Assembly: GCA_017431255.1 (NCBI GenBank)
Contig: JAFRLI010000185.1
Coordinates: 1 to 39,814 of the forward strand
DNA: 39,814 nt
Source of the DNA: Victivallales bacterium
Lineage (GTDB): Bacteria > Verrucomicrobiota > Lentisphaeria > Oligosphaerales > Oligosphaeraceae
Reading direction: 5' to 3'
The translations under genes were made by a program, and so were the position numbers. How positions within the stretch are numbered: the first letter of the stretch is position 1; each line of letters opens with the position of its first letter. Under the pieces are notes generated by a model. The model was given only the letters and a program-made list of their open reading frames with translations, ran no database searches and was not told the origin of the DNA. Shown one piece after another: positions 3,097 to 39,715 of this stretch.

Positions 3097-3803
3097 CGGC
3101 ACTGGGAACATTCTACGGGGTCGGTCTGGGTCCGGGCGATCCTGGACTCGTCACCTTGAACGGACTGAAGGCGTTGCAGTCTGCGCGGCACATCTTCACG
3201 GTCGCAGGAAGCCATACGGGACGCAGCGTCTCGCGGGACATCGTGACTGAGCTGCCGGGAATCACCGCTGTGTTGCACGACCTCCCCTTCCCGATGACAA
3301 CGGAAAAGACGCAGTGGACCGAAAACTGCCGCCGCAACGCGGAGACGATTGCGGCGCATCTCCGCGACGGCGAGGACTGCGCCTTCGGAACCATCGGGGA
3401 CTGCTCCTCCTACAGCACCTGCACCTACCTTCTGGATGAACTGAAACATATCCTGCCGGAACTTCACGCGGTTCTCATTCCAGGCGTCAACTCCTGGAGC
3501 GCGCTTGCCGCGAAAACACAGCTCCCGCTGGCGGGCATCCAGGAGATTCTGCGCGTCGTCCCCGCGCACTCCCCGGACCAGCCTGCACCTGAGTTTCCAC
3601 AGGGCACGACCACCGTCCTCCTGAAAACCTACCACACGCGGAACCAACTCCTTGCACAACTCCCGCCCGACGCGCAAATCGCCTACGGCGAGAATCTGGG
3701 CTTGCCGCAGGAATACGTCTCCACGAATCCAGACGAGATTCTCTCCCGTCCCGAAGCCTATCTTTCCATGCTTCTGGTAAAACGACCGAACGACCATGAT
3801 TGA
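3093..3803 (+). CDS. cbiL: Precorrin-2/cobalt-factor-II C20-methyltransferase (CbiL/CobI)
   Basis: A 236-residue SAM-dependent tetrapyrrole methylase. The N-terminal GVGLGPGDPG (residues 9-18) is the family's glycine-rich motif. The following LVTLNGLKALQSARHIF and the central GDCSSYSTCTYLLDEL are typical of the C20-methyltransferase branch, which methylates C20 of precorrin-2 or cobalt-factor II in corrin-ring construction. The chosen ATG at 3093 overlaps the ATPase stop as ATGA; a longer frame upstream is only out-of-frame ATPase sequence. The end overlaps the CobD-CobQ start by 8 nt, indicating coupled translation. The sequence alone does not decide whether the aerobic (CobI) or anaerobic (CbiL) substrate is used. 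Confidence 0.9.
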   Translation: MTALGTFYGVGLGPGDPGLVTLNGLKALQSARHIFTVAGSHTGRSVSRDIVTELPGITAVLHDLPFPMTTEKTQWTENCRRNAETIAAHLRDGEDCAFGTIGDCSSYSTCTYLLDELKHILPELHAVLIPGVNSWSALAAKTQLPLAGIQEILRVVPAHSPDQPAPEFPQGTTTVLLKTYHTRNQLLAQLPPDAQIAYGENLGLPQEYVSTNPDEILSRPEAYLSMLLVKRPNDHD

Positions 3804-6288
3804 ACACGGTGGCAACAAGATTCTGATGGCGAAGCAAGCGGGCTGCCGTCCCGAGGAGCTGCTGGACTTCAGCGTGAACCTCCATCCCGACGGTCCTCCC
3901 GAAGGCCTCCTCGCCGAATGCCTCGGCGCGTTCGATTCCATCCAGGAATATCCCGAACCCCATGCAGAATCCCTCTCCTCTCTCGCCGCAGTAAAATGGA
4001 ACCGACCGGCGGACGATTTCCTCTTCGGCAACGGCTCCAGTGAACTGCTCGGACTCGTCCCACGCGCACTGCCAGTGCAGGACGCGCTCATCGTCACGCC
4101 AGGCTACCTCGAATACGAGAACGCCTGCCGCGCCGCAAACCTACCCGTCCGCACCTTCCCTCTTGCGGAAACCGAGGAGTTCCAGTTGAATCCCGAACGA
4201 CTAGCCGCTTCCCTGCAAGGGCGCGAACTCGTCATCCTCGGAAATCCCAACAATCCCACAGGAAACACCCTTCCCGCAAATACCCTCCGCCAGCTCGCAA
4301 AGGAGCATCCTGATACCTTCTTCCTGCTTGACGAGGCGTTCGCCGACTTCACTGGCGATTCCTCCATCGGAAACACGCTTCCCAATCTCCTCGTATCTCG
4401 TTCCCTCACAAAATACTACGCCTGCCCTGGAATCCGCATCGGCTATCTCTGGGGTTTCCCCGAAATCATCGCGAGAATCCGGGAATTGCAGCCGCCCTGG
4501 AGCGTCAGTGCGCTCGCCACGCATGCCGCGACCTTCCTGCTGACCCACGCCCGTCAGACCGCCGACGGGATTCCCGCGCTTCGCGAGGAATTGGCAAACG
4601 GGCTCCGCGCCGCTGATCTGAAGGTCTACCCTTCCCAAGCAAACTTCCTCCTCTGCCGTGGCGAAACCGGGCTTGCCGCGAAACTGCTTCAGAAACGCAT
4701 CGCCGTCCGCGACTGCTCCAACTACCCCGGACTGGACGCGCGTTTCATCCGCGTGGCGGTGCGTTCCCGCGAGGACAATGCGCGGCTGCTGGCAGCATTG
4801 ACTCCGAAGCACGTGCGTCTCCCGAAGCGGAAGACGCCTGCGCTGATGCTGCAAGGCACCTGTTCCAACGCCGGCAAAAGCGTGCTCGCCGCAGCATTCT
4901 GTCGGCTTCTCCTACAGGATGGTTTCTCCGTAGCACCCTTCAAGGCGCAAAATATGGCGCTGAACTCCTTCGTCACACCAGATGGCGGGGAAATTGGGCG
5001 GGCGCAAGCCGTCCAGGCCGCCGCCTGCCATCTCGCGCCTGACGTCCGAATGAACCCCATCCTCCTCAAGCCCAACAGTGACCTGGGAAGCCAGGTGGTG
5101 TTGCTGGGGCAGCCCATCGGAAACTTCCGCGTGCGAGACTATTTCCGCAAAAAAGCCGAACTTTGGCACGAAGTTGCCCTAGCCTACGACTCCCTCGCCT
5201 CCGAACACGATTGCATCGTTCTGGAAGGCGCGGGAAGCCCGGGCGAAGTCAACCTCAAACGCTCTGACATCGTCAATATGAACATGGCACGTCACGCAGA
5301 CGCAACCGTCCTTCTGGTTGGTGACATCGACCGTGGCGGCGTCTACGCATCCTTCCTCGGCACCTACCAGACCCTCGAACCCTGGGAACGTTCCTTGCTC
5401 CACGGCTTCCTCGTCAACAAGTTCCGTGGCGACCCTTCCTTGCTGACCGACGCCCACGAATATATTCTTCGCACGACTGGCAAGCCCGTTCTCGGTGTCA
5501 TTGACTGGCAGCGCGACCTCGGTCTCCCCGAAGAGGATTCCGTCAACTTCGCCTTTACCCGCCCAGTAGAACGCGATTCCCGCACCCTGGACGCCGCGCT
5601 CATCGCCCTCGGTCACACCGCCAACTTCACGGACTTCGCACCTCTGGAAATCGAACCCGATGTGCGCCTCCGCCTCGTTCACACCGCCGCGGATTTCGGG
5701 ACGCCCGATTTGGTTCTCCTGCCCGGCAGCAAGAACGTCGCCGCTGACATGGAGGTTCTTCACCAAAACGGCCTCGCAGAACGCCTGCGCTCCTATCACG
5801 GGTTCCTCGTCGGCATCTGCGGCGGTCTCCAACTTCTCGGGCTTTCCTACGAAGACCCGTCCCACATCGAATCCTTTTCCCAAGTCACCGAATGCCTCGG
5901 CATTCTTCCCATTCGCACCATCCTGCGCCCGCAAAAAACACTCCGCCAGACGCATGCCGTCCTTTCCGACGGCACGAAAATCCACGGCTACGAAATCCAT
6001 CACGGAGAATCCTTCCCAACCGCTCCCATCGAGTCCATCTTCGACGATTCGCAGCGCACCGTCGGCTTCCTTACGTCCAACTGTTTCGCAACCTACCTCC
6101 ACGGCGTCTTTGACGAGGATTCCTTCCGCCGCTCCTTCCTCGACCGTCTCCGCATGCGCATGGGCTTGCCTCCGCGCAATACCCTCTCCCACTATGGCTT
6201 CGAAGAGGCTCTCGACCGCCTCGCCGAACATCTCCGTTCCCGGATTGACATTTCCTCCCTCTACCGCAAACTAAATCTCCGCTCATGA
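3796..6288 (+). CDS. cobQ: CobD-CobQ fusion: threonine-phosphate decarboxylase plus cobyric acid synthase
   Basis: An 830-residue two-enzyme protein. Residues 1 to about 340 form a PLP aminotransferase-fold CobD/CobC-like domain: HGGN at 4-7, DFSVNLHP, NPNNPTG, and probable PLP lysine K206 in SLTKYY. It would make (R)-1-amino-2-propanol phosphate for the nucleotide loop. Residues about 350-830 form cobyric acid synthase (CobQ/CbiP): nucleotide loop GTCSNAGKS at 354-362, then FKAQNMALNSFVT and LVGDIDRGGVYAS. A class I glutamine amidotransferase domain follows, with C675 (GICGGLQLLG) and H769 (YLHGVFDED). It amidates adenosylcobyrinic diamide to cobyric acid. Both halves keep their key residues, so both are probably active. 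Flanking genes overlap it. Confidence 0.93.
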   Translation: MIEHGGNKILMAKQAGCRPEELLDFSVNLHPDGPPEGLLAECLGAFDSIQEYPEPHAESLSSLAAVKWNRPADDFLFGNGSSELLGLVPRALPVQDALIVTPGYLEYENACRAANLPVRTFPLAETEEFQLNPERLAASLQGRELVILGNPNNPTGNTLPANTLRQLAKEHPDTFFLLDEAFADFTGDSSIGNTLPNLLVSRSLTKYYACPGIRIGYLWGFPEIIARIRELQPPWSVSALATHAATFLLTHARQTADGIPALREELANGLRAADLKVYPSQANFLLCRGETGLAAKLLQKRIAVRDCSNYPGLDARFIRVAVRSREDNARLLAALTPKHVRLPKRKTPALMLQGTCSNAGKSVLAAAFCRLLLQDGFSVAPFKAQNMALNSFVTPDGGEIGRAQAVQAAACHLAPDVRMNPILLKPNSDLGSQVVLLGQPIGNFRVRDYFRKKAELWHEVALAYDSLASEHDCIVLEGAGSPGEVNLKRSDIVNMNMARHADATVLLVGDIDRGGVYASFLGTYQTLEPWERSLLHGFLVNKFRGDPSLLTDAHEYILRTTGKPVLGVIDWQRDLGLPEEDSVNFAFTRPVERDSRTLDAALIALGHTANFTDFAPLEIEPDVRLRLVHTAADFGTPDLVLLPGSKNVAADMEVLHQNGLAERLRSYHGFLVGICGGLQLLGLSYEDPSHIESFSQVTECLGILPIRTILRPQKTLRQTHAVLSDGTKIHGYEIHHGESFPTAPIESIFDDSQRTVGFLTSNCFATYLHGVFDEDSFRRSFLDRLRMRMGLPPRNTLSHYGFEEALDRLAEHLRSRIDISSLYRKLNLRS

Positions 6289-22284: not shown

Positions 22285-23103
22285 ATGGCTATTACTGCTG
22301 CACAAGTTTCTGCCCTGCGCGAAAAGACGCAGTGCGGTATGATGGATTGCAAAAAGGCTCTCGAGGCCAGCGATGGCGACATCGAGAAGGCCGTGGAATG
22401 GCTCCGCAAGAAGGGCATGGCCCGTGCCGAAGAAAAGGCCGGCCGCGCCGCGAACCAGGGCATCATCGTCATCAAGGCGGAAGGCAACGCCGCTGCCATG
22501 GTCGAACTGCTTTGCGAAACCGACTTCGTCGCCCGCAATCCCCAGTTCAAGGCATACGGTGCCAAACTCGCTGACGCCGTTCTGGCGTACGATGGCGAAG
22601 GTGATGTCTCCGCGAAACTCGCCGCACAGTTCTGCGACGACCTCAAGGAGTTCATCGGCGTCATCAAGGAAAACATGAAGATTCGCCGCGCCCTGCGTTG
22701 GGTCTCCACCGAGGGCAAACTCGGCTTCTACGTGCACACTGCCACCCCGTACGCGGCACTGGTCGAACTCACTGGCGAAGTCAGTGACGAACTCCCCCAG
22801 CAGGTTGCCATGCAGGTTGTCTCCGCCGACCCGAAGTTCATCTGCCCGAAGTGCATCCCCGAAGATCGCATCGCCAAAGAGCGCGAAATCGCGCTGGCCA
22901 CCGCTCCCCAGGGCAAGCCGCAGAACATCATCGATGGCATCGTCAACGGCAAACTCAACAAGTGGTACAGCCAGGTCTGCCTCGTGAAGCAACCCTGGAT
23001 TTTCGATGACAAAACCACCCTCGAAAAGGCTGCCCCGAAGGCACGCGTCCTCCGTTTCGTCCGCTGGACCGCCGGCGAACCTCTCGAAGGCGAACAGGCA
23101 TAG
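22285..23103 (+). CDS. tsf: Translation elongation factor Ts
   Basis: 272 residues. It exchanges GDP for GTP on EF-Tu. The N-terminal UBA-like domain (VSALREKTQCGMMDCKKALEASDGDIEKAVEWLRKKG), the TDFVARN core motif (residues about 80-86), and the KEREIAL and GKLNKWYSQVCLVKQPW regions identify it. An unusual CPKC pair (FICPKCIPED, near residue 190) replaces the normally cysteine-free loop before KEREI and could bind a metal. AGAAGGA precedes the ATG. A hairpin and then a strong terminator lie directly downstream. Confidence 0.97.
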   Translation: MAITAAQVSALREKTQCGMMDCKKALEASDGDIEKAVEWLRKKGMARAEEKAGRAANQGIIVIKAEGNAAAMVELLCETDFVARNPQFKAYGAKLADAVLAYDGEGDVSAKLAAQFCDDLKEFIGVIKENMKIRRALRWVSTEGKLGFYVHTATPYAALVELTGEVSDELPQQVAMQVVSADPKFICPKCIPEDRIAKEREIALATAPQGKPQNIIDGIVNGKLNKWYSQVCLVKQPWIFDDKTTLEKAAPKARVLRFVRWTAGEPLEGEQA

Positions 23104-24866: not shown

Positions 24867-26465
24867 TTAGATTCCCTGGATGGTGAAGTTTCGGATTTCC
24901 GCGTTAACGTTGAGTTGTTTCCAGAAGAAGATAACGACACTGAGGGCGGATTCGTCGGCTGGGACGGTGAGTTCAAGGGTGACGCTCTGCCACTTGTCGG
25001 AAAGTTTTGTGACAGGAAAGTCGGTGCGTTTGAGAACCTTGCCGTAGGTCATGGCGGAAAGGTTGCCCGTACCACGTGCCTCGAAGGACAGCCGATAACG
25101 GACGCCCGGGGTGAAGGGAATATTGCTTGCTTGGATTCCTGCGCCGCCCTTGTTGTCGAGGGATTGAATGGTCGCGATTTCTCCAGAAGTGACTTTGGCG
25201 TCCTGGAACTTGGCAGTGAGGAGTTTTTGGATGGAGTGCTTTTGGGTATCGGCGCAGAGGGTGAGATCACCGTACTTTGAGGTGGCCTTGGGGCCACCGA
25301 TGCCGTCGGCCCATCGGAGATATCCATCGCGTCCCTTGCCATCGTTGTTGTTGACGAGGAGGGAGAAACGGAGCGGGATGTTCTTCTTGCAGATGAAGGG
25401 GAAGAGGTCGCCCTCGGAGACATGGATGTCGTAGGAGGTGGTGGTTCCGTTGCGGGTGACCTTGACGGTGCTCTTCGTGAGGGGGACGTTTGCCTCGGAG
25501 TAGTCGGCGGGGAGGTCGCCCTTGAGGCGCGGGGTGAATGTCTTGTAGATGATTTCGCGAGGACCGGCTGCGAACTCGATACGGTCGTCGGGATAGCCTT
25601 GTCCGACGCCGTCGAGCGCGAACTGGACACTGTCGCATTCCCAGAACTTCAAACCGTCGCATTTGTCGAAATGGACCTTGTCCTTGACGTCGATGTGCAG
25701 ATCGATGCCCTTGGTGTGGTAGGAGACGGTGAAGGAGGCGTCCAGGCCGTCCTGCATAGGACGAGAGTTGCAGGCTTCGTAAGTGAGGTTGGAGATGGGA
25801 ACGGAAGGCTGTCCCGGTGATGTGTATTTTGCGCGGACAAGATGCTGCAAGACGGGGCGAGAGCGGCGATAGTCCACAAAATCGTCATATCGGTTTTTCT
25901 GGGGGAAGGCCTCGGGGACGATTCCCTTTGCAAAATAGACCATTCGCGGGCGGAGCGCAGCCGTATCGACGGGGCGTCCCTGCCAGTCAATGAGCGTGGC
26001 TCCCTGCAGAGCCTTGACCAGCTCAGGATCCACAATGAACTTCTGTGTTTTATCCATAGCCCAGAACATCGCGAGAGTGCCATTTGGGGTGCGGAAAAGG
26101 GAAGCAAACTGATCACTCTCCTTGGGACCAAAACGGTAGTTGCCGAGCCGCTCCACCTTGCCCGGGAGGAGGTCGACGGCATTTCGCAGGGCGAGCGCGG
26201 CTTCGCGAGGTTCAATCCAAGGTTTCGAACGGAAGATGCCCAGAATCTGCTGGATTCCTGGTGCTTTGGCGAAGAATTGCACGGTTTCGGGAATCCAGGA
26301 ATCGGCAACCATGCCGAAGCCAGTGACGCGCGAATGACCCGCTTGGATAAGGTCGGCGAGGCCAACAAGCATCCGGAAAGTGACCTCCTGCTCCGTGGGA
26401 ATTTCGGGAGCACTGCAGTTGTAGAGGACGGTGTGCCATTCCCCTTCCAGGTACGGCTTGGACTT
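24867..26465 (-). pseudogene. C-terminal part of amber-interrupted secreted glycosidase
   Basis: This is the in-frame continuation after the TAG at 26466-26468; the first ATG is at 26372, but the frame is open from 26465. It opens with KSKPYLEGEWHTVLYNC, which looks like the strand carrying the GH-A nucleophile (E490 or E492 in full-frame numbering). The end of the barrel follows, then a CBM9-like domain (GLKFWECDSVQFALDG, RIEFAAG) and a terminal carbohydrate-binding-type beta sandwich (YRLSFEARGTGN...VTLELTVP). No ribosome-binding site is visible before the internal ATG. Alone it would lack a signal peptide and half the catalytic domain. Confidence 0.8.
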
Positions 26466-26468
26466 CTA
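26466..26468 (-). other. In-frame amber codon inside glycosidase gene
   Basis: TAG at codon 483, in the lysine-rich context K-N-K-stop-K-S-K. The flanking codons are AAA and AAG, so a single AAG-to-TAG or CAG-to-TAG change would create it. Other genes here end in TAG (tsf, btuR-type gene at 6815), so general amber recoding is unlikely. Confidence 0.9.
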
Positions 26469-27914
26469 TTTATTCTTTTGCTCGACGATGCGGTAGGGTG
26501 TGAGGAGAAGCCCGCAGTGGGTCTCCACCACGTCCAGATATTGCTGACCGCCCTTCTGCAGGAACTCGTCATAGAAGTTCATATACGGCCCGCCACCAAG
26601 CCCACCCAGGACGATGGATACATTGGGATTGGCCTCCTTGGCCCCCGTGTAGCCTTCCTTCATCAGTTCGACGAAGCGGTCCACGGTCGATTCCTTCCAG
26701 AAGATGCTGCCGCCGCGAACGTTGGGCTCGTTCCAGAGTTCCAGCAACGCCATTTCAGGATAGCGCTTGACGAAGGCGTTGATATAGTTGTGCCAAGCTT
26801 TCAAATCTTTTGGCGAATAATACTGGTATTGACTATCTTTCGGACTCATGGAATTCCATCGCGGGGTGCCGAGAGTGTTGAAAAGGATATTCTTCATCGG
26901 GAGACCGTTGCGTTTGGCGGCGGCGATGGCTTCGTCGACGATCCGCCAGTCATATTTTCCGGGTTCCCTTTCGATGTCATCCCAGCGGAACCAGTGGAAT
27001 CGCACGAATTGGTCCATATGCAGGGCGCGGATCAGTGCGAACTGCTGATCCATGGTAGGGGTGCCATATGAAAGCGCATTTTCAACTGTCTTAGGACTGA
27101 TATTGTAGCCAAACATATTCGGGACACGCTTCGAGCCGGCGGGTGTAATGCCGAACCCGATGCGGTCGCGCGTGTATACCATCTTCGTCTTGCGGAAGAT
27201 TCCCCGGCTTTCGTGGCGGAAATCGCAGATGTACAGGTTTCCTACGACGGGCTCGACTTTGCCGCTTGCGTCCAGCCAGGAGAACTTCGCCTGGTAGAAC
27301 CCGGGAAGAGTAGGACAGAACTTCCATTTTGCACCCTTGGCATCGATGGTAGCGACGGGTTTGCCATCAAGGTCGAAGACTTCCCCTCGAATGCCGGTCT
27401 TGCCTTCGGGGAGTACCGCAGTGAAGGAGGCACCGGTTTCGTATTCGAAGATGCCGCCGTAGTTGTCCGGGAAGACGAAATAGAACCAGGAGAGTTTCGA
27501 GTTGAGGATGGTGATTCTGGAGTCCCCTTGGATTTTGCGATCGTTGATGGCGGAAATCCTGTAACGCAGGGAGACGGCTTTTTCGGGATAGACTTGCGGC
27601 AACGCCTGCACTGCGTGAAAGTCTTTCTTGCCCCAGGTGTCTTCGACCGGATAGTGCAGCGGCGGGCGCATAAGAAAATCCTCTCCAATCTTCTTGCCGT
27701 CCTTGTCCAGGAACTGCAAGAACACGAAAGCCTGCTGCGGACCGTGGCAGATGTACTCGAAATGCACCTCCAGACCAGGTCGCGACGACGGAATCGCATA
27801 CGTCTGCGACCACCAGGTGGGATTCATTCCCGGCTTGTCCGACAATTCAACCGGCTCCGCCAATGCCACCATGCACAACATTACAAAACTCAATGCACAT
27901 GCCAATCTCTTCAT
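26466..27914 (-). CDS. N-terminal part of secreted GH-A (GH39/GH5-like) glycosidase, ends at in-frame TAG
   Basis: 482 residues ending at an amber codon. Signal peptide 1-19 (MKRLACALSFVMLCMVALA), start set by AAGGAG seven bases upstream. Residues about 20-260 are beta domains. A TIM barrel begins at about 285 (MDQQFALIRALHMDQFVRFHWFRWDD) and carries the acid/base E396 in LLELWNEPN. The frame stops in VEQKNK before the strand expected to bear the nucleophile, and resumes in the same frame immediately after. Full frame: 1,015 sense codons. As it stands the product would be inactive unless the TAG is read through. Confidence 0.85.
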   Translation of the reverse strand: MKRLACALSFVMLCMVALAEPVELSDKPGMNPTWWSQTYAIPSSRPGLEVHFEYICHGPQQAFVFLQFLDKDGKKIGEDFLMRPPLHYPVEDTWGKKDFHAVQALPQVYPEKAVSLRYRISAINDRKIQGDSRITILNSKLSWFYFVFPDNYGGIFEYETGASFTAVLPEGKTGIRGEVFDLDGKPVATIDAKGAKWKFCPTLPGFYQAKFSWLDASGKVEPVVGNLYICDFRHESRGIFRKTKMVYTRDRIGFGITPAGSKRVPNMFGYNISPKTVENALSYGTPTMDQQFALIRALHMDQFVRFHWFRWDDIEREPGKYDWRIVDEAIAAAKRNGLPMKNILFNTLGTPRWNSMSPKDSQYQYYSPKDLKAWHNYINAFVKRYPEMALLELWNEPNVRGGSIFWKESTVDRFVELMKEGYTGAKEANPNVSIVLGGLGGGPYMNFYDEFLQKGGQQYLDVVETHCGLLLTPYRIVEQKNK

Positions 27915-33123: not shown

Positions 33124-36100
33124 TTAGCGTGTCAGGAGATAGACAAAGACGCCTCCCTTGCGGGCGGAGTTGTCCGCGGTGAACTTGAGAAGGCCGTTGG
33201 CAAAAGTTGCGGGGACCTCGCCGTTTTCGGCACCGTCAAGTTTGAGAGCGGTAATCTTGGCGGCGGGGAGTTTCAATTCCACCTCGACCTTGGCCTTGCG
33301 GTAGAGTCCGGGAAGTTTCCCCCAGCTTCGCAGGAGGACACGGTCGGCCGTATCGAACTTCTGTTCGGTATTGGCAAGGTTCACCTGATGGACAAAGAGA
33401 GCCTTCTTGGAGGTCGCGAGCGGTTCCCCATCCAGGGAAATCAGATAAAAGGCCTGCGGAGAAGTTACACCCTTGACGGCGATGGTGTCGCTGGAAGCGT
33501 CCTGGACGCAAGTGAGCGCCCAGGAACGCGGCGAGGTAATCGCCAGGCGCTTCGCCCTAGGTTCCACCACAATTTCCCCCGTAGAACTAACAATGCTCGT
33601 TCCCTCTTTCACGTTTGCCAAGACTGCCTTGTGAGCCGCATCCAGAGAATCCGCCCAGTTCGGGGAAAGGATATCTACCTTTTGGACATTCTGGAACTGC
33701 GCGTCGTCCATCAGGGAGCCAATGCGGGAGTACAGTCCAAGAATCGTGTATTTTTCGGGGTACTTTCCTTCGCTCTTCGGGACGTCAATCAGCCGCTTGC
33801 TGTCAATTTGGGCGGCAACGGCTTCCTTGGCGGGCTGGATGTCCCCGCGGAGGAACATCGCCCAGATGATTCGTTCCCCAAGTTGTTGCAGGAAGTCGTT
33901 CACCTGGTTGAATCCCGAGGGGATTCCAGGCTTGATGATGGCACTATCACCGTGTGACCAGGCGAAACGGTAGAGACCGTCCCAGTCCTGGAGGCTGGCG
34001 TAGGCTCCCATCAGACCGGCAGCCTCGACACGGTACATGTTGGGATTGCAGTAGTTCCATTCCGTGATAGTGAAGGGCTTGCCAAACATTCGAGTGGGCA
34101 TCACGACACGCGGGAGTTGCGCAAAGTTGCCTACCATCGAAGTTTGCTGGTAAAGGGTCGGGGCACGCCACTTTTCGCCGGGGAAGCGTGGGTGGGAGGC
34201 ATACTGGTGATTGTCCACGACATCCAGTTCCTGACGTGCAAGCGAGAACTGCATGTACTGATGCCAGTTGACGTCCGTGATAAGCGCAGGGGTTTTGATT
34301 TCCTCGCGAAGGAAACGCTTCATTTCACGAATGCAGGCGATTTGCGTACGGTTGAGCCAGTCGTCATATGCGCCTGGATGTGCCTTCCCATCGATCTTGT
34401 TCTTTTTCGCATATTCCGCGAACTTGGCACGATAAATCTTCTCAATGACAGGATTGCGGTTGCTCTGGGTCATGGGATGGTCTTCGTTCATCAAATCCAG
34501 GAAGGCAAGCACGGGGTCCTGTCCCAGCGGGAGTTTCGTGTAGGGATTGACGGTCGTAAGGATGAGACGCGCATACGCCTTCCAGTTCTCCAACGCACTG
34601 GGGCTGATGGGCGCGAGTGCCTTCATCTCCTTGGCGGAGAAGTTATCCAGTTCCTCAATCCCGTCCCCTTTCTGCAGTTTTCTGCTGCAAAACAGGTCGA
34701 TGGTAACATAGATTCCCGCTTTCTTGCAGGCATTCACCAGATAGAACCACTTGTCGACCTTCTCCGGTTCGAAGTGCAAGGAATCCGTATGGTTCTTGGT
34801 GTCCAGGATGGGATTTTCCATATGGTGAAGGCGAAGCGTATTATAGCCGCAACGGACGAGCTTCCGCACGACTTCATCCGCGTCCTCGTGCGTCAACGTG
34901 TTGGCGCTCCCACAGAAGTTGGTGCCTAACAGACGGAAACGAACACCTGGACGCTGCGCGAACTGGAAATGCCCGTCGGCATCAGTCTGCAGGAATCCGT
35001 ACTTGCCAGCGGGAGCGTCCTGCAGGGAGGAGAAATCAAGCGGCGAACCTGGAATGGTGTTGCGGTTGAACTCGTAGACGCCCCAGTCCTGGTTCTCCAC
35101 GATGACGCATGGAGTGGAATGGGCCTCCAGGGCGAACAGGCGGTTGGAAAGGGTCATTCCGCAGACGAACCAGAACCCTTTTTCAACATCGAAAGTAACG
35201 CTTTGCGCCTCGGAACGAAGCGGGAACCGGGAGAGATACAACCCGATTTTTGAATCGTTTTTGACCGATGCCCATGCAATGGCCGCATTGGGGTAGCCGT
35301 GGTCGAGCTGCCAGTCTCCGACATCCAGACCGTTCCGAAGCACCTTCGTGGAACTGGTGCCGTCCGTGTAGTTGATGGTGATGGAACCGACATCCTCACC
35401 GACGGAAGGCGGGCTGCCCGCCGCGTGGAGAAGATACAAATAGGACATTCCTTTTGTCTCCTGAAGGGGGACGGTCACCTTTCGAGGAAGCACCGCAAAC
35501 TCGCGGTCTGGTCCCGCCAGCGCAAGAACGCCCTTGCCGCCATTCTTGCCCTCTTTCACGACATCAAACGGCACACGTTCGGCAACAAGAGACTCTTGCG
35601 GGAAGGAACGCAAATCCTTCCCGGGACCTTCATCTGTCCAGCCACCTTTTCCATCGCCCGCTATGGCGTCCGTATACCCCCAGTTGCAGAATGTTGTCAT
35701 ATCGATTTTCTTGAACAGGTTTTGCACATAAGAAACCACCATTTCCTTGGAAATCCGCGTAAGTGGCTTCTCCTTGGTGGAACGCGGCAACTGCAACCGA
35801 ATGCTGTAAGTCTGGCCTCGCTTGTGATTGTCCTGCAAAAGATACGCCCCCGCCTCTTCAATGCGCAGATTTCCTTCTGGATAAGTTACTTCCACAATCT
35901 TTGCCTTGCCTGTCTTGAGAAGCCCCTTGATGTGCTCCTGCGGAAACTGGTATGCCTTGCCATCGAACGACAGTCCTGCCCCCGTATGGGGAATGCTGAA
36001 CGTGATCACCGTGGACGCAGAAGGAGGAAGCCCCCCTTCTGCGGAAAGCGTCATCGTGACGCGAGACTTGTCCCCTTCTTGGATACAAATGGTCTCCATC

Positions 36101-36348
36101 TGGACAGGTGTGTCAGCAACCTTCCAACTCCCCGTGAATGTCTCCCTCCCATTCTCGCGCGAAATCTTCCCTTTTGACAATGTCCTGCCATTCGCCGACA
36201 CCGCTTTCCAGTCCGCTAAGTAATAAACCACATTCAGGTCCAAATGCCCGGCTTTGATTCCTCCTTGCTCCTGAAGTTTCACAGGTTCCGACCGAAGACT
36301 ACACGAAAACACAAATAAACATACGAAAATGATCACTTGATTCTTCAT
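33124..36348 (-). CDS. Giant secreted GH5-like (clan GH-A) glycosidase, paralogue 2
   Basis: 1,074 residues from the ATG at 36348, behind AAAAAGGAAG; an in-frame TTG at 36369 adds seven residues before the signal peptide and is less likely. The signal peptide spans 1-20. Residues about 21-460 are beta-rich. A TIM barrel spans about 470-830: CGYNTLRLHHMENPILD near 495, acid/base E622 in LDLMNEDHP and nucleophile E763 in ITEWNYCNPN. A C-terminal beta domain ends FTADNSARKGGVFVYLL. It is closely similar along its whole length to the gene upstream, evidence of tandem duplication. A plant or host polysaccharide is the likely substrate, not identifiable here. Confidence 0.82.
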   Translation of the reverse strand: MKNQVIIFVCLFVFSCSLRSEPVKLQEQGGIKAGHLDLNVVYYLADWKAVSANGRTLSKGKISRENGRETFTGSWKVADTPVQMETICIQEGDKSRVTMTLSAEGGLPPSASTVITFSIPHTGAGLSFDGKAYQFPQEHIKGLLKTGKAKIVEVTYPEGNLRIEEAGAYLLQDNHKRGQTYSIRLQLPRSTKEKPLTRISKEMVVSYVQNLFKKIDMTTFCNWGYTDAIAGDGKGGWTDEGPGKDLRSFPQESLVAERVPFDVVKEGKNGGKGVLALAGPDREFAVLPRKVTVPLQETKGMSYLYLLHAAGSPPSVGEDVGSITINYTDGTSSTKVLRNGLDVGDWQLDHGYPNAAIAWASVKNDSKIGLYLSRFPLRSEAQSVTFDVEKGFWFVCGMTLSNRLFALEAHSTPCVIVENQDWGVYEFNRNTIPGSPLDFSSLQDAPAGKYGFLQTDADGHFQFAQRPGVRFRLLGTNFCGSANTLTHEDADEVVRKLVRCGYNTLRLHHMENPILDTKNHTDSLHFEPEKVDKWFYLVNACKKAGIYVTIDLFCSRKLQKGDGIEELDNFSAKEMKALAPISPSALENWKAYARLILTTVNPYTKLPLGQDPVLAFLDLMNEDHPMTQSNRNPVIEKIYRAKFAEYAKKNKIDGKAHPGAYDDWLNRTQIACIREMKRFLREEIKTPALITDVNWHQYMQFSLARQELDVVDNHQYASHPRFPGEKWRAPTLYQQTSMVGNFAQLPRVVMPTRMFGKPFTITEWNYCNPNMYRVEAAGLMGAYASLQDWDGLYRFAWSHGDSAIIKPGIPSGFNQVNDFLQQLGERIIWAMFLRGDIQPAKEAVAAQIDSKRLIDVPKSEGKYPEKYTILGLYSRIGSLMDDAQFQNVQKVDILSPNWADSLDAAHKAVLANVKEGTSIVSSTGEIVVEPRAKRLAITSPRSWALTCVQDASSDTIAVKGVTSPQAFYLISLDGEPLATSKKALFVHQVNLANTEQKFDTADRVLLRSWGKLPGLYRKAKVEVELKLPAAKITALKLDGAENGEVPATFANGLLKFTADNSARKGGVFVYLLTR

Positions 36349-36374
36349 GCGTTGCTTCCTTTTTAACAATTATG

Positions 36375-36419: not shown

Positions 36420-39400
36420 CTATCGTGACAGGAGATAGACGAAGAGGCCTTCCTTGCGAGCGGTGTTGTCCGCGGTAAACTGGAGTTTGCCGTTGGCGAA
36501 CGTTGCAGGGACCTCGCCGTTTTCGGCACCGTCGAGTTTGAGAGCCGTGACTTTGGCGGCAGGAACTGCAAGAGAGACATCGACTTTTGCCTTGCGGTAG
36601 AGTCCAGGAAGCCTGCCCCAGGAGCGAAGCAACGTGCATTCGTCGGTATCGAACTTCTGGTCGGTGTTCGTCAAATTGACCAGGTGAATGAACAGAATCT
36701 TCTTGCTGGTTTCCAGAGGCTGTTCATCCAGCGACACCAAGTAGAATGCCTGCGGACTTTTGACGCCCTTGACCGTGATCACTTCGGATGCCGCGTCTTT
36801 GACGCAAGTCAGCGCACAGCTTCGCGAGGTCTTGACGGCCAGGCACTTCTCTTTCGGTGTGATGAGGATTTCCCCCGTGGAACTCCGAATCGAGGTTCCT
36901 TCCTTGACATTTTCCACAACCGCTTTCATCCCTGACGACGGCAGTTTCTCCTCCCAGTTCTCAGCCAAGATTTCCACCTTGGGGACGTTCTGAAACTGCA
37001 AATCATCCACCAAGGTGCCAATGCGGGCGTAGAGTCCGAGCATCGAAAAGTTGGCGGGGTAGCGAGTACGATTTGGAAGAGTTTTGAGCGACTTGCTGTC
37101 AAAGGTAGCAGCGACCGCTTCTGAGGCGGGTTTCACGTCGCCTCGCGCAAACATCGCCCAGATGACGCGCTCCGCGAGCTGCTGCAGGAAGTCGTTGGCC
37201 TGGTTGAATCCAGAAGGATGTCCGTTCTTAAGAATCGTGCTGTCGCTGTGAGACCAGGCAAAGCGGTAGAGACCGTCCCAGTCCTGAAGGCTCGCGTAGG
37301 CCCCCATCAAAGCGGCTGCTTCGACACGGTACATGTTCGGGTTGCAATAGTTCCATTCCGTGACGGTAAAAGGTTTGCCAAATACGCGTGCCGGCATCAT
37401 GGCACGCGGAAGACTCGCGTGGTTGCCAACCGCCGAAATCTGCTGGTATTCCGTTGGCAGGCTCCAGGGCTTGACGGGGAATCGGGGGTGTGAGGCGTAC
37501 TGATGGTTGTCAACGATATCAATTTCCTTTCGTGCGCTGGCAAAATGGAGGTTGGACTGCCAATTGATATCCGTAATAAGTGCCGGAGTCTTGATTTCCT
37601 CGCGGAGGAATCGCGTCATCTCACGAATGCAGGCAATCTGCTTTTGATTGAGCCAGTCATGGAAGGCACCAGGATTTTTATTTTCATCAATGTTGTTTTC
37701 ACGGAGATATTCCTGGTATTTTTGCTTGTAGACTTTGGTGATTTCGGGATATCTCGTCATCTGGGTGATGGGATGGTCCTCGTTCATTAAGTCGAGGAAT
37801 GCGAGGACAGGGTCCTGCGCCAACGGAAGTTTCGTGTACGGATTGACGGTAGTGAGAATGAGGCGCGTGTATGCCTTCCAGTTTTCCATCGCCGTGGGGC
37901 TGATGGGCGCAAGCGCCTTCATCTCGTGACGCGAGAAGTTGTCCGTTTCCGCGATGCCATCGCCCTTCTGGAGCAGACGGCTGCAATACAAATCGATGGT
38001 GACATAGAGACCCGCCTTCTTGCAAGCATAGACAAGATAGAACCAGTGGTCGATTTTCTCCTTGTCGAAATGGAGGGAATCCTTGAAGTTCTTCGTATCG
38101 AGAATGGGGCGTTCCATATGATGGAGACGAAGGGTATTGTAGCCGCACTGGGCGAGTTTCTTCACGACCTCATCGGCCCCCTCGTGGGTGATGGTATTTG
38201 CGGAACTGCAGAAGTTGGTCCCGAAGAGACGGACGCGCTTGTTTGGAATCTTTTCAAAGTAGAAGTGTCCATTGGAGTCGGCCTTGAGGAAGCCGTGCTT
38301 GCCAGCGGGGGTCTCGTTGTGTCCGGAGAAGTCCAGCGGCGAACCGGGAATGGTCTCGCGGGTGAACTCGTAGACTCCCCAATCCTTGTTCTCGTGGAAA
38401 ATCGTGGGGACCGTACTCTGGGCAAAGGAAACCGAACGGCTTCCCAGTGTCATTCCACTCAGGAACCAGAACCCCCTCTTGACCTCGAACTTCACACTCT
38501 TCGCGTCCGATTTCAACGGGAAACAAGAAACGTAAAGCCCAATTTTGGAACTGCTGTTTGCCCCCGTCCAACCAATGCCTCCATTGGGCAGGCTAAGCCC
38601 GCCAAGCCACCAGTTGCCGCAGTCACGTCCCTGCTGAACATTCTGTGTATCGCTCGTGCCATCCATATAATTGACAGTTAAAGTACCAATGTCCTCGCCG
38701 CCTTTCGGAGTCCAGCCTGCTGCATGCAGCAAGAACAGATACCGGTAGCCTTTGGATTTGACAAGCGAAACGGTGATGTCCCGGGGAAGCGACGGAAGGT
38801 CGCGATCCTCCGCGGCCAGAGTCAAGTTGCCCAGCCCATTGTTTTTCTTTTCGTCAACGACTTTGAAGGGCACGCCGAACGCAGTCAAATCTGCCATGGG
38901 GAAGGAACTCATATCATTGTCGGGGCCCTGGTCGGTCCAACCGCCCTTTCCGTCGCCCGCCACGGCGTCGGAATATCCCCAGTTGCAGAGTTTCGTGATG
39001 TCAATCTTCTGAAACTTGTCCTTTGCATAGGTCAAAGTGACTTCCTTGGAGATGGTTGTAAGAGGCTTCTCCTTGGTAGAATTCCCAACCAACAAGCGGA
39101 CGCTATAGGTGTTTCCCCACTTGTAATTGTCTTGAACCAAGTACCTTCCAACGCCCTCGATACGCAGCACACCGCCGTAGGTTCCGACCTCCACATTCTC
39201 GGCAGTTCCAGTTTTGAGAGACTGCTGATTGTGTTCATAGGGAAGTTTGAGGGGCTTGTCGTCAATGGAGAGAGACGCACCTGCCACGGGCAGGCTGACG
39301 CTGATGGCAATCGTCTCGGACGCAGGCAAGCCTTCTTTTGCGCTCAAAGACATGCGGAGGCGGTACTTGTCTCCTTCCTGGGTCAAGATCGATTCCACCT

Positions 39401-39647
39401 GTACCTCGGTATCCTCAATCTTCCAAACGCCCGTGAGCGTTTCACTATTTTTCCCCTTCGTATGCTTCTTATTGTAAAAGGTCTTTTCATTCAACGGTGT
39501 CCCTTTCCAACCTGCACGGTAATACGCCCAACCCAATCCCAGTGCCCCAGCCTTGACGCCCCCAAACTCCGAAATACCCACTGGCGCACCAAACAAACTG
39601 CACGCCATTGCTGCAACACACAACACAATTGCCAGCCGTTTCCTCAT
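36420..39647 (-). CDS. Giant secreted GH5-like (clan GH-A) glycosidase, paralogue 1
   Basis: 1,075 residues from the ATG at 39647, behind GGAGAAAGGA; the TTG at 39689 would place 14 residues before the signal peptide. Signal peptide about 1-21 (RKRLAIVLCVAAMACSLFGA). N-terminal beta region, then a TIM barrel with CGYNTLRLHHMERPILD, acid/base E623 (LDLMNEDHP) and nucleophile E764 (VTEWNYCNPN), then a beta domain ending FTADNTARKEGLFVYLL. Domain order and most motifs are shared with paralogue 2, with differences concentrated in the N-terminal third. First gene of the operon; a 26-bp tandem array lies 68 bp upstream. Confidence 0.83.
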   Translation of the reverse strand: MRKRLAIVLCVAAMACSLFGAPVGISEFGGVKAGALGLGWAYYRAGWKGTPLNEKTFYNKKHTKGKNSETLTGVWKIEDTEVQVESILTQEGDKYRLRMSLSAKEGLPASETIAISVSLPVAGASLSIDDKPLKLPYEHNQQSLKTGTAENVEVGTYGGVLRIEGVGRYLVQDNYKWGNTYSVRLLVGNSTKEKPLTTISKEVTLTYAKDKFQKIDITKLCNWGYSDAVAGDGKGGWTDQGPDNDMSSFPMADLTAFGVPFKVVDEKKNNGLGNLTLAAEDRDLPSLPRDITVSLVKSKGYRYLFLLHAAGWTPKGGEDIGTLTVNYMDGTSDTQNVQQGRDCGNWWLGGLSLPNGGIGWTGANSSSKIGLYVSCFPLKSDAKSVKFEVKRGFWFLSGMTLGSRSVSFAQSTVPTIFHENKDWGVYEFTRETIPGSPLDFSGHNETPAGKHGFLKADSNGHFYFEKIPNKRVRLFGTNFCSSANTITHEGADEVVKKLAQCGYNTLRLHHMERPILDTKNFKDSLHFDKEKIDHWFYLVYACKKAGLYVTIDLYCSRLLQKGDGIAETDNFSRHEMKALAPISPTAMENWKAYTRLILTTVNPYTKLPLAQDPVLAFLDLMNEDHPITQMTRYPEITKVYKQKYQEYLRENNIDENKNPGAFHDWLNQKQIACIREMTRFLREEIKTPALITDINWQSNLHFASARKEIDIVDNHQYASHPRFPVKPWSLPTEYQQISAVGNHASLPRAMMPARVFGKPFTVTEWNYCNPNMYRVEAAALMGAYASLQDWDGLYRFAWSHSDSTILKNGHPSGFNQANDFLQQLAERVIWAMFARGDVKPASEAVAATFDSKSLKTLPNRTRYPANFSMLGLYARIGTLVDDLQFQNVPKVEILAENWEEKLPSSGMKAVVENVKEGTSIRSSTGEILITPKEKCLAVKTSRSCALTCVKDAASEVITVKGVKSPQAFYLVSLDEQPLETSKKILFIHLVNLTNTDQKFDTDECTLLRSWGRLPGLYRKAKVDVSLAVPAAKVTALKLDGAENGEVPATFANGKLQFTADNTARKEGLFVYLLSR

Positions 39648-39715
39648 TTGTCCTTTCTCCTTTCTCATTTCGTTTCTTGCCAATCTCAAAAAATCTTTCC
39701 ATCCAACACCACATT

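Follow-up and report, generated by a model that had tools for sequence, protein, structure and literature searches.

The locus raises the question of why a large gene for a putative secreted glycosidase is split by a single amber codon between its two presumed catalytic glutamates, and whether this codon terminates translation, is read through, or exists in the assembly but not in the organism. The gene resides in a window of 39,814 nucleotides within a genome of 3.54 Mb that is distributed over 352 contigs and is 90% complete.

The interrupted frame and its protein

The gene is encoded on the minus strand, which the preliminary description had not stated. In the reverse complement of 24867-27914, the frame extends over 1,015 codons to a final TAA, with the TAG at codon 483 as its sole internal stop, while the plus strand of the same interval is not open. 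The preliminary description, which had reported one amber codon in an otherwise open frame and had placed it between the two catalytic glutamates, is therefore borne out in both respects: E396 and E492 are invariant in an alignment of 16 sequences, and the TAG is found nine codons 5' of E492. The individual features are as follows.

24867-27914, minus strand: interrupted gene of a putative secreted multidomain glycosidase of clan GH-A type; 1,015 codons when read through, one internal TAG
26466-27914, minus strand: 5' open part of 482 amino acids, comprising a signal-peptide-like start, the N-terminal region and the barrel short of the second catalytic glutamate
27858-27914, minus strand: putative signal-peptide-like N terminus, MKRLACALSFVMLCMVALA, as judged by eye
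26727-26729, minus strand: E396 in WNEP, presumed acid/base, invariant
26466-26468, minus strand: in-frame TAG at codon 483; its alignment column, in a loop, is variable and holds many different residues in homologues
26439-26441, minus strand: E492 in EGEWH, presumed nucleophile, invariant
24867-26465, minus strand: 3' part, 532 codons that follow the TAG in frame, still conserved
26384-26389, minus strand: AGGAGG, 11 nucleotides 5' of an internal ATG at 26372
25257-25763, minus strand: CBM9_1-like carbohydrate-binding domain

A Shine-Dalgarno-like AAGGAG is present at the gene start, and codon usage displays a coding signal both 5' and 3' of the TAG. Since the Pfam matches to glycoside hydrolases (GH39, GH10 and GH42) all remain under their curated cut-offs, with 23.1 bits against 26 in the case of GH39 (PF01229), no single GH family can be assigned to the protein. 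Comparison of a profile of 16 homologues with solved structures yielded matches to PslG (5bx9, E 4e-16) and to GH39 xylosidases, which span the first part of the barrel including WNEP, and a weak GH42 match is seen in 14 of the 16 alignment members. The WNEP acid/base motif is common to the present protein, to GH39/PslG and to other families of clan GH-A (GH42, GH10 and GH35), and it is by analogy that E396 and E492 are presumed to act as acid/base and nucleophile, respectively. The two conserved catalytic glutamates, the first of which is part of NE(P), are those of a retaining clan GH-A glycosidase, and the protein as a whole appears to fit such an enzyme with accessory carbohydrate-binding domains. 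The CBM9_1-like domain scored 25.8 bits in the search of its own genome, above the curated cut-off, and 21.7 bits in the scan of the whole protein, below it.

Paralogue, homologues and age of the stop

An intact paralogue is present in the same genome (G000:C1:288-3326). It covers residues 1-1015 of the query at 71% identity and is devoid of a stop; moreover, it adjoins an amidohydrolase gene, and its neighbourhood thus differs from that of the window copy. Some 20 other homologues, drawn from the levels of family, class and phylum, are 27-42% identical and continuous across the TAG. Because the paralogue is intact from end to end and the homologues continue over the TAG, the two halves constitute one gene and not a chance arrangement, and a stop within the frame with homologues intact across it is what characterizes a nonsense pseudogene. 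A protein scan of GTDB contigs retrieved no relative. Recoding within the family was considered on account of apparent stops in relatives, namely TAA in one genus of the family, TAG on contig C93 and TGA in genome G059, and was rejected: upon translation, the seven apparent stops that were examined all turned out to be natural gene ends just past the CBM9-like domain. Another locus of the genome (G000:C217:14573-19777) encodes two tandem homologues of the glycosidase in one open frame of approximately 1,849 codons, with WNEQ instead of WNEP.

The preliminary description had regarded the protein as well conserved and undecayed, which agrees with the comparison of the two copies. In a relative-rate test comprising 281 sites at which three outgroup homologues are in agreement, 17 sites have changed in the window copy alone versus 11 in the paralogue alone (one-sided p = 0.17), and past the TAG the corresponding numbers are 8 and 6 (p = 0.40). 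In addition, dN/dS between the two copies amounts to 0.22, before and after the TAG alike. According to a simple model, the time without constraint corresponds to about 2% of the branch, with upper bounds of 5.7% for the whole gene and 7.5% for the part past the TAG, all of which are rough values that presuppose equal branch lengths and unsaturated dS. Since changes at conserved sites are not in significant excess over those of the paralogue, the loss of constraint would date back no more than about 6% of the divergence time. Judged by these substitutions, the window copy is not decayed, and the lack of detectable decay implies that the stop is either very young or not real.

Reading of TAG in the genome

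In 0.8 Mb of the genome, genes of at least 150 codons with a coding signal end more often in TAG (125) than in TAA (117) or TGA (92). TAG likewise closes several genes of the window, including the neighbouring tsf at 23103, and RF1 is intact, scoring 452.7 bits at a cut-off of 423. Reassignment of TAG would entail a codon that is rare or absent as a terminator and loss of RF1, neither of which is found here; reassignment, as well as dedicated readthrough, is not supported.

Suppressor tRNA or pyl genes, which the preliminary description had named as something to look for, did not emerge. None of the 35 tRNA genes recovered by a whole-genome Rfam search bears the UAG-reading CTA anticodon, a result qualified by the possibility that the tRNA model overlooks tRNA-Pyl and by a genome completeness of about 90%; several other tRNAs of a full set are absent as well. 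As the genome is incomplete, the absent CTA tRNA is no proof on its own. In the same genome of about 90% completeness, the best match to PylS reached 28.3 bits against a cut-off of 178 and encompassed 33 positions only, and MttB was not found. Pyrrolysine and selenocysteine act at special positions. Pyrrolysine-containing proteins resemble the present one in having a gene that is open but for an in-frame TAG, yet differ from it with respect to these missing components and to the residue position, which in the glycosidase is variable and non-catalytic. Furthermore, the local RNA at the TAG shows no excess of structure over shuffled sequences (z = +0.68).

Internal stops were found in none of 107 other domain matches of four families in the same genome (FAD_oxidored 31, Cellulase 25, CBM9_1 7 and ABC_tran 44). 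A scan of 0.8 Mb for interrupted frames yielded mostly neighbouring genes in the same frame, where a start codon follows only a few codons away. Of the frames that lack such a close start, ten were checked, and none of them has a Pfam domain across the stop; the only domain-bearing frame among the ten corresponds to an ExbB/ExbD gene pair.

Origin of the stop and genomic surroundings

The finding is an ordinary one, either a gene broken recently or an error of one base in the sequence. Probably, the TAG is a very recent nonsense codon in one of two related glycosidase genes, whose truncated product would be inactive and whose loss would be tolerated by virtue of the intact paralogue. One of the two genes for closely related secreted glycosidases would have newly gained a single nonsense codon, at which RF1 would terminate translation and thereby release a piece of 482 residues. 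This piece would contain neither the barrel strand with the second catalytic glutamate nor the CBM9-like domain, and is therefore predicted to be inactive. Translation of the downstream half could begin only within the barrel, its product would have no signal peptide, and rescue by it would not be expected. Since an intact copy of the enzyme remains, the lesion may well be tolerated through redundancy.

Bacterial genomes commonly contain single nonsense changes of recent origin. With pseudogenes of this type the present gene shares one in-frame stop, a frame that is otherwise intact, and intact homologues including a paralogue, and no tested feature sets it apart from them. A study of in-frame stops describes such codons as widespread within bacterial genes, reports that dN/dS stays below 1 for many of them, and proposes readthrough (Belinky et al. 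2021, PMC7918605). The stops of that study resemble the present one in that they interrupt a gene whose dN/dS is low to either side; by contrast, the present stop is seen in one genome only, and the value of 0.22 pertains to the divergence of two paralogues, which mostly predates the stop. The readthrough interpretation needs a stop that persists through divergence, whereas the present one is seen in a single genome.

The preliminary description had listed a very recent nonsense change, a sequence or assembly error and deliberate readthrough, of which the first two stand while the last is unlikely, given the use of TAG as the main terminator, the presence of RF1, the UAG tRNA and pyl genes not found, the variable residue and the lack of a special RNA fold. 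Functional readthrough, i.e. insertion of a residue at the TAG by a suppressor or near-cognate tRNA at a low level that provides some full-length enzyme, has in its favour that the stop column tolerates many residues, that the tRNA gene could be missing from a genome of 90% completeness, and that the 3' half is conserved to the same degree as the 5' half, although a stop so young would look alike whether or not it is read through. No other genome with a homologue carries the stop. Such readthrough is very improbable, and it is scarcely to be expected that an undetected tRNA permits readthrough at a useful rate, with termination at codon 483 damping the expression of one of the duplicate glycosidases. 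Even harder to credit, to the point of being nearly negligible, is a split enzyme with two independently translated halves, of which the second would begin at the internal ATG at 26372, the first ATG of the 3' part. The resulting ORF of 501 amino acids lacks a signal peptide, the break falls inside the catalytic barrel, and the nearest ATG, GTG or TTG past the TAG is 32 codons away. The AGGAGG preceding this ATG, which is missing in the paralogue through synonymous differences that preserve the amino acids, would speak for a second start, but its spacing exceeds the usual one and the motif is short enough to arise by chance, which is probably its origin.

The main rival to a recent nonsense codon is an error of base calling, consensus building or strain mixing in a metagenome-type assembly, with the gene being intact in the organism, which is possible though on balance unlikely. 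The fragmentation and incompleteness of the assembly (352 contigs, 90%), the restriction of the lesion to one codon in undecayed surroundings and the fact that the 0.8-Mb scan confirmed no second interrupted gene of like quality are consistent with such an error. It is opposed by the absence of any direct sign of poor quality at the site, where no long homopolymer run occurs and the neighbouring genes are open, and by the 107 domain matches free of stops.

In practical terms, annotation of the truncated ORFs as two enzymes should be avoided, and the intact paralogue is identified as the copy to study instead. Otherwise the observation carries little weight, as it concerns one recently broken gene, or one wrong base, in a genome that encodes many polysaccharide-degrading enzymes.

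The glycosidase gene is preceded upstream by genes for an exonuclease, dapF and a member of the inositol phosphatase family, and is followed downstream by the convergent rpsB, tsf, a gene of the amino acid kinase family that occupies the position of pyrH, and frr. Neither Pfam nor NCBIfam yielded a match for two neighbouring proteins of about 1,085 amino acids (33124-36369 and 36420-39689, both minus strand), apart from a weak sub-threshold Cellulase match of the former. RpoC found a single relative in the GTDB scan, at 59% identity, on a contig of a yak rumen MAG (JAGDCW010000182.1). Finally, an ORF of 830 amino acids (3796-6288, plus strand) combines class I/II aminotransferase, CbiA and GATase_3 domains and thus resembles a fusion of two cobalamin genes, one CobD-like and the other cobyric acid synthase-like.
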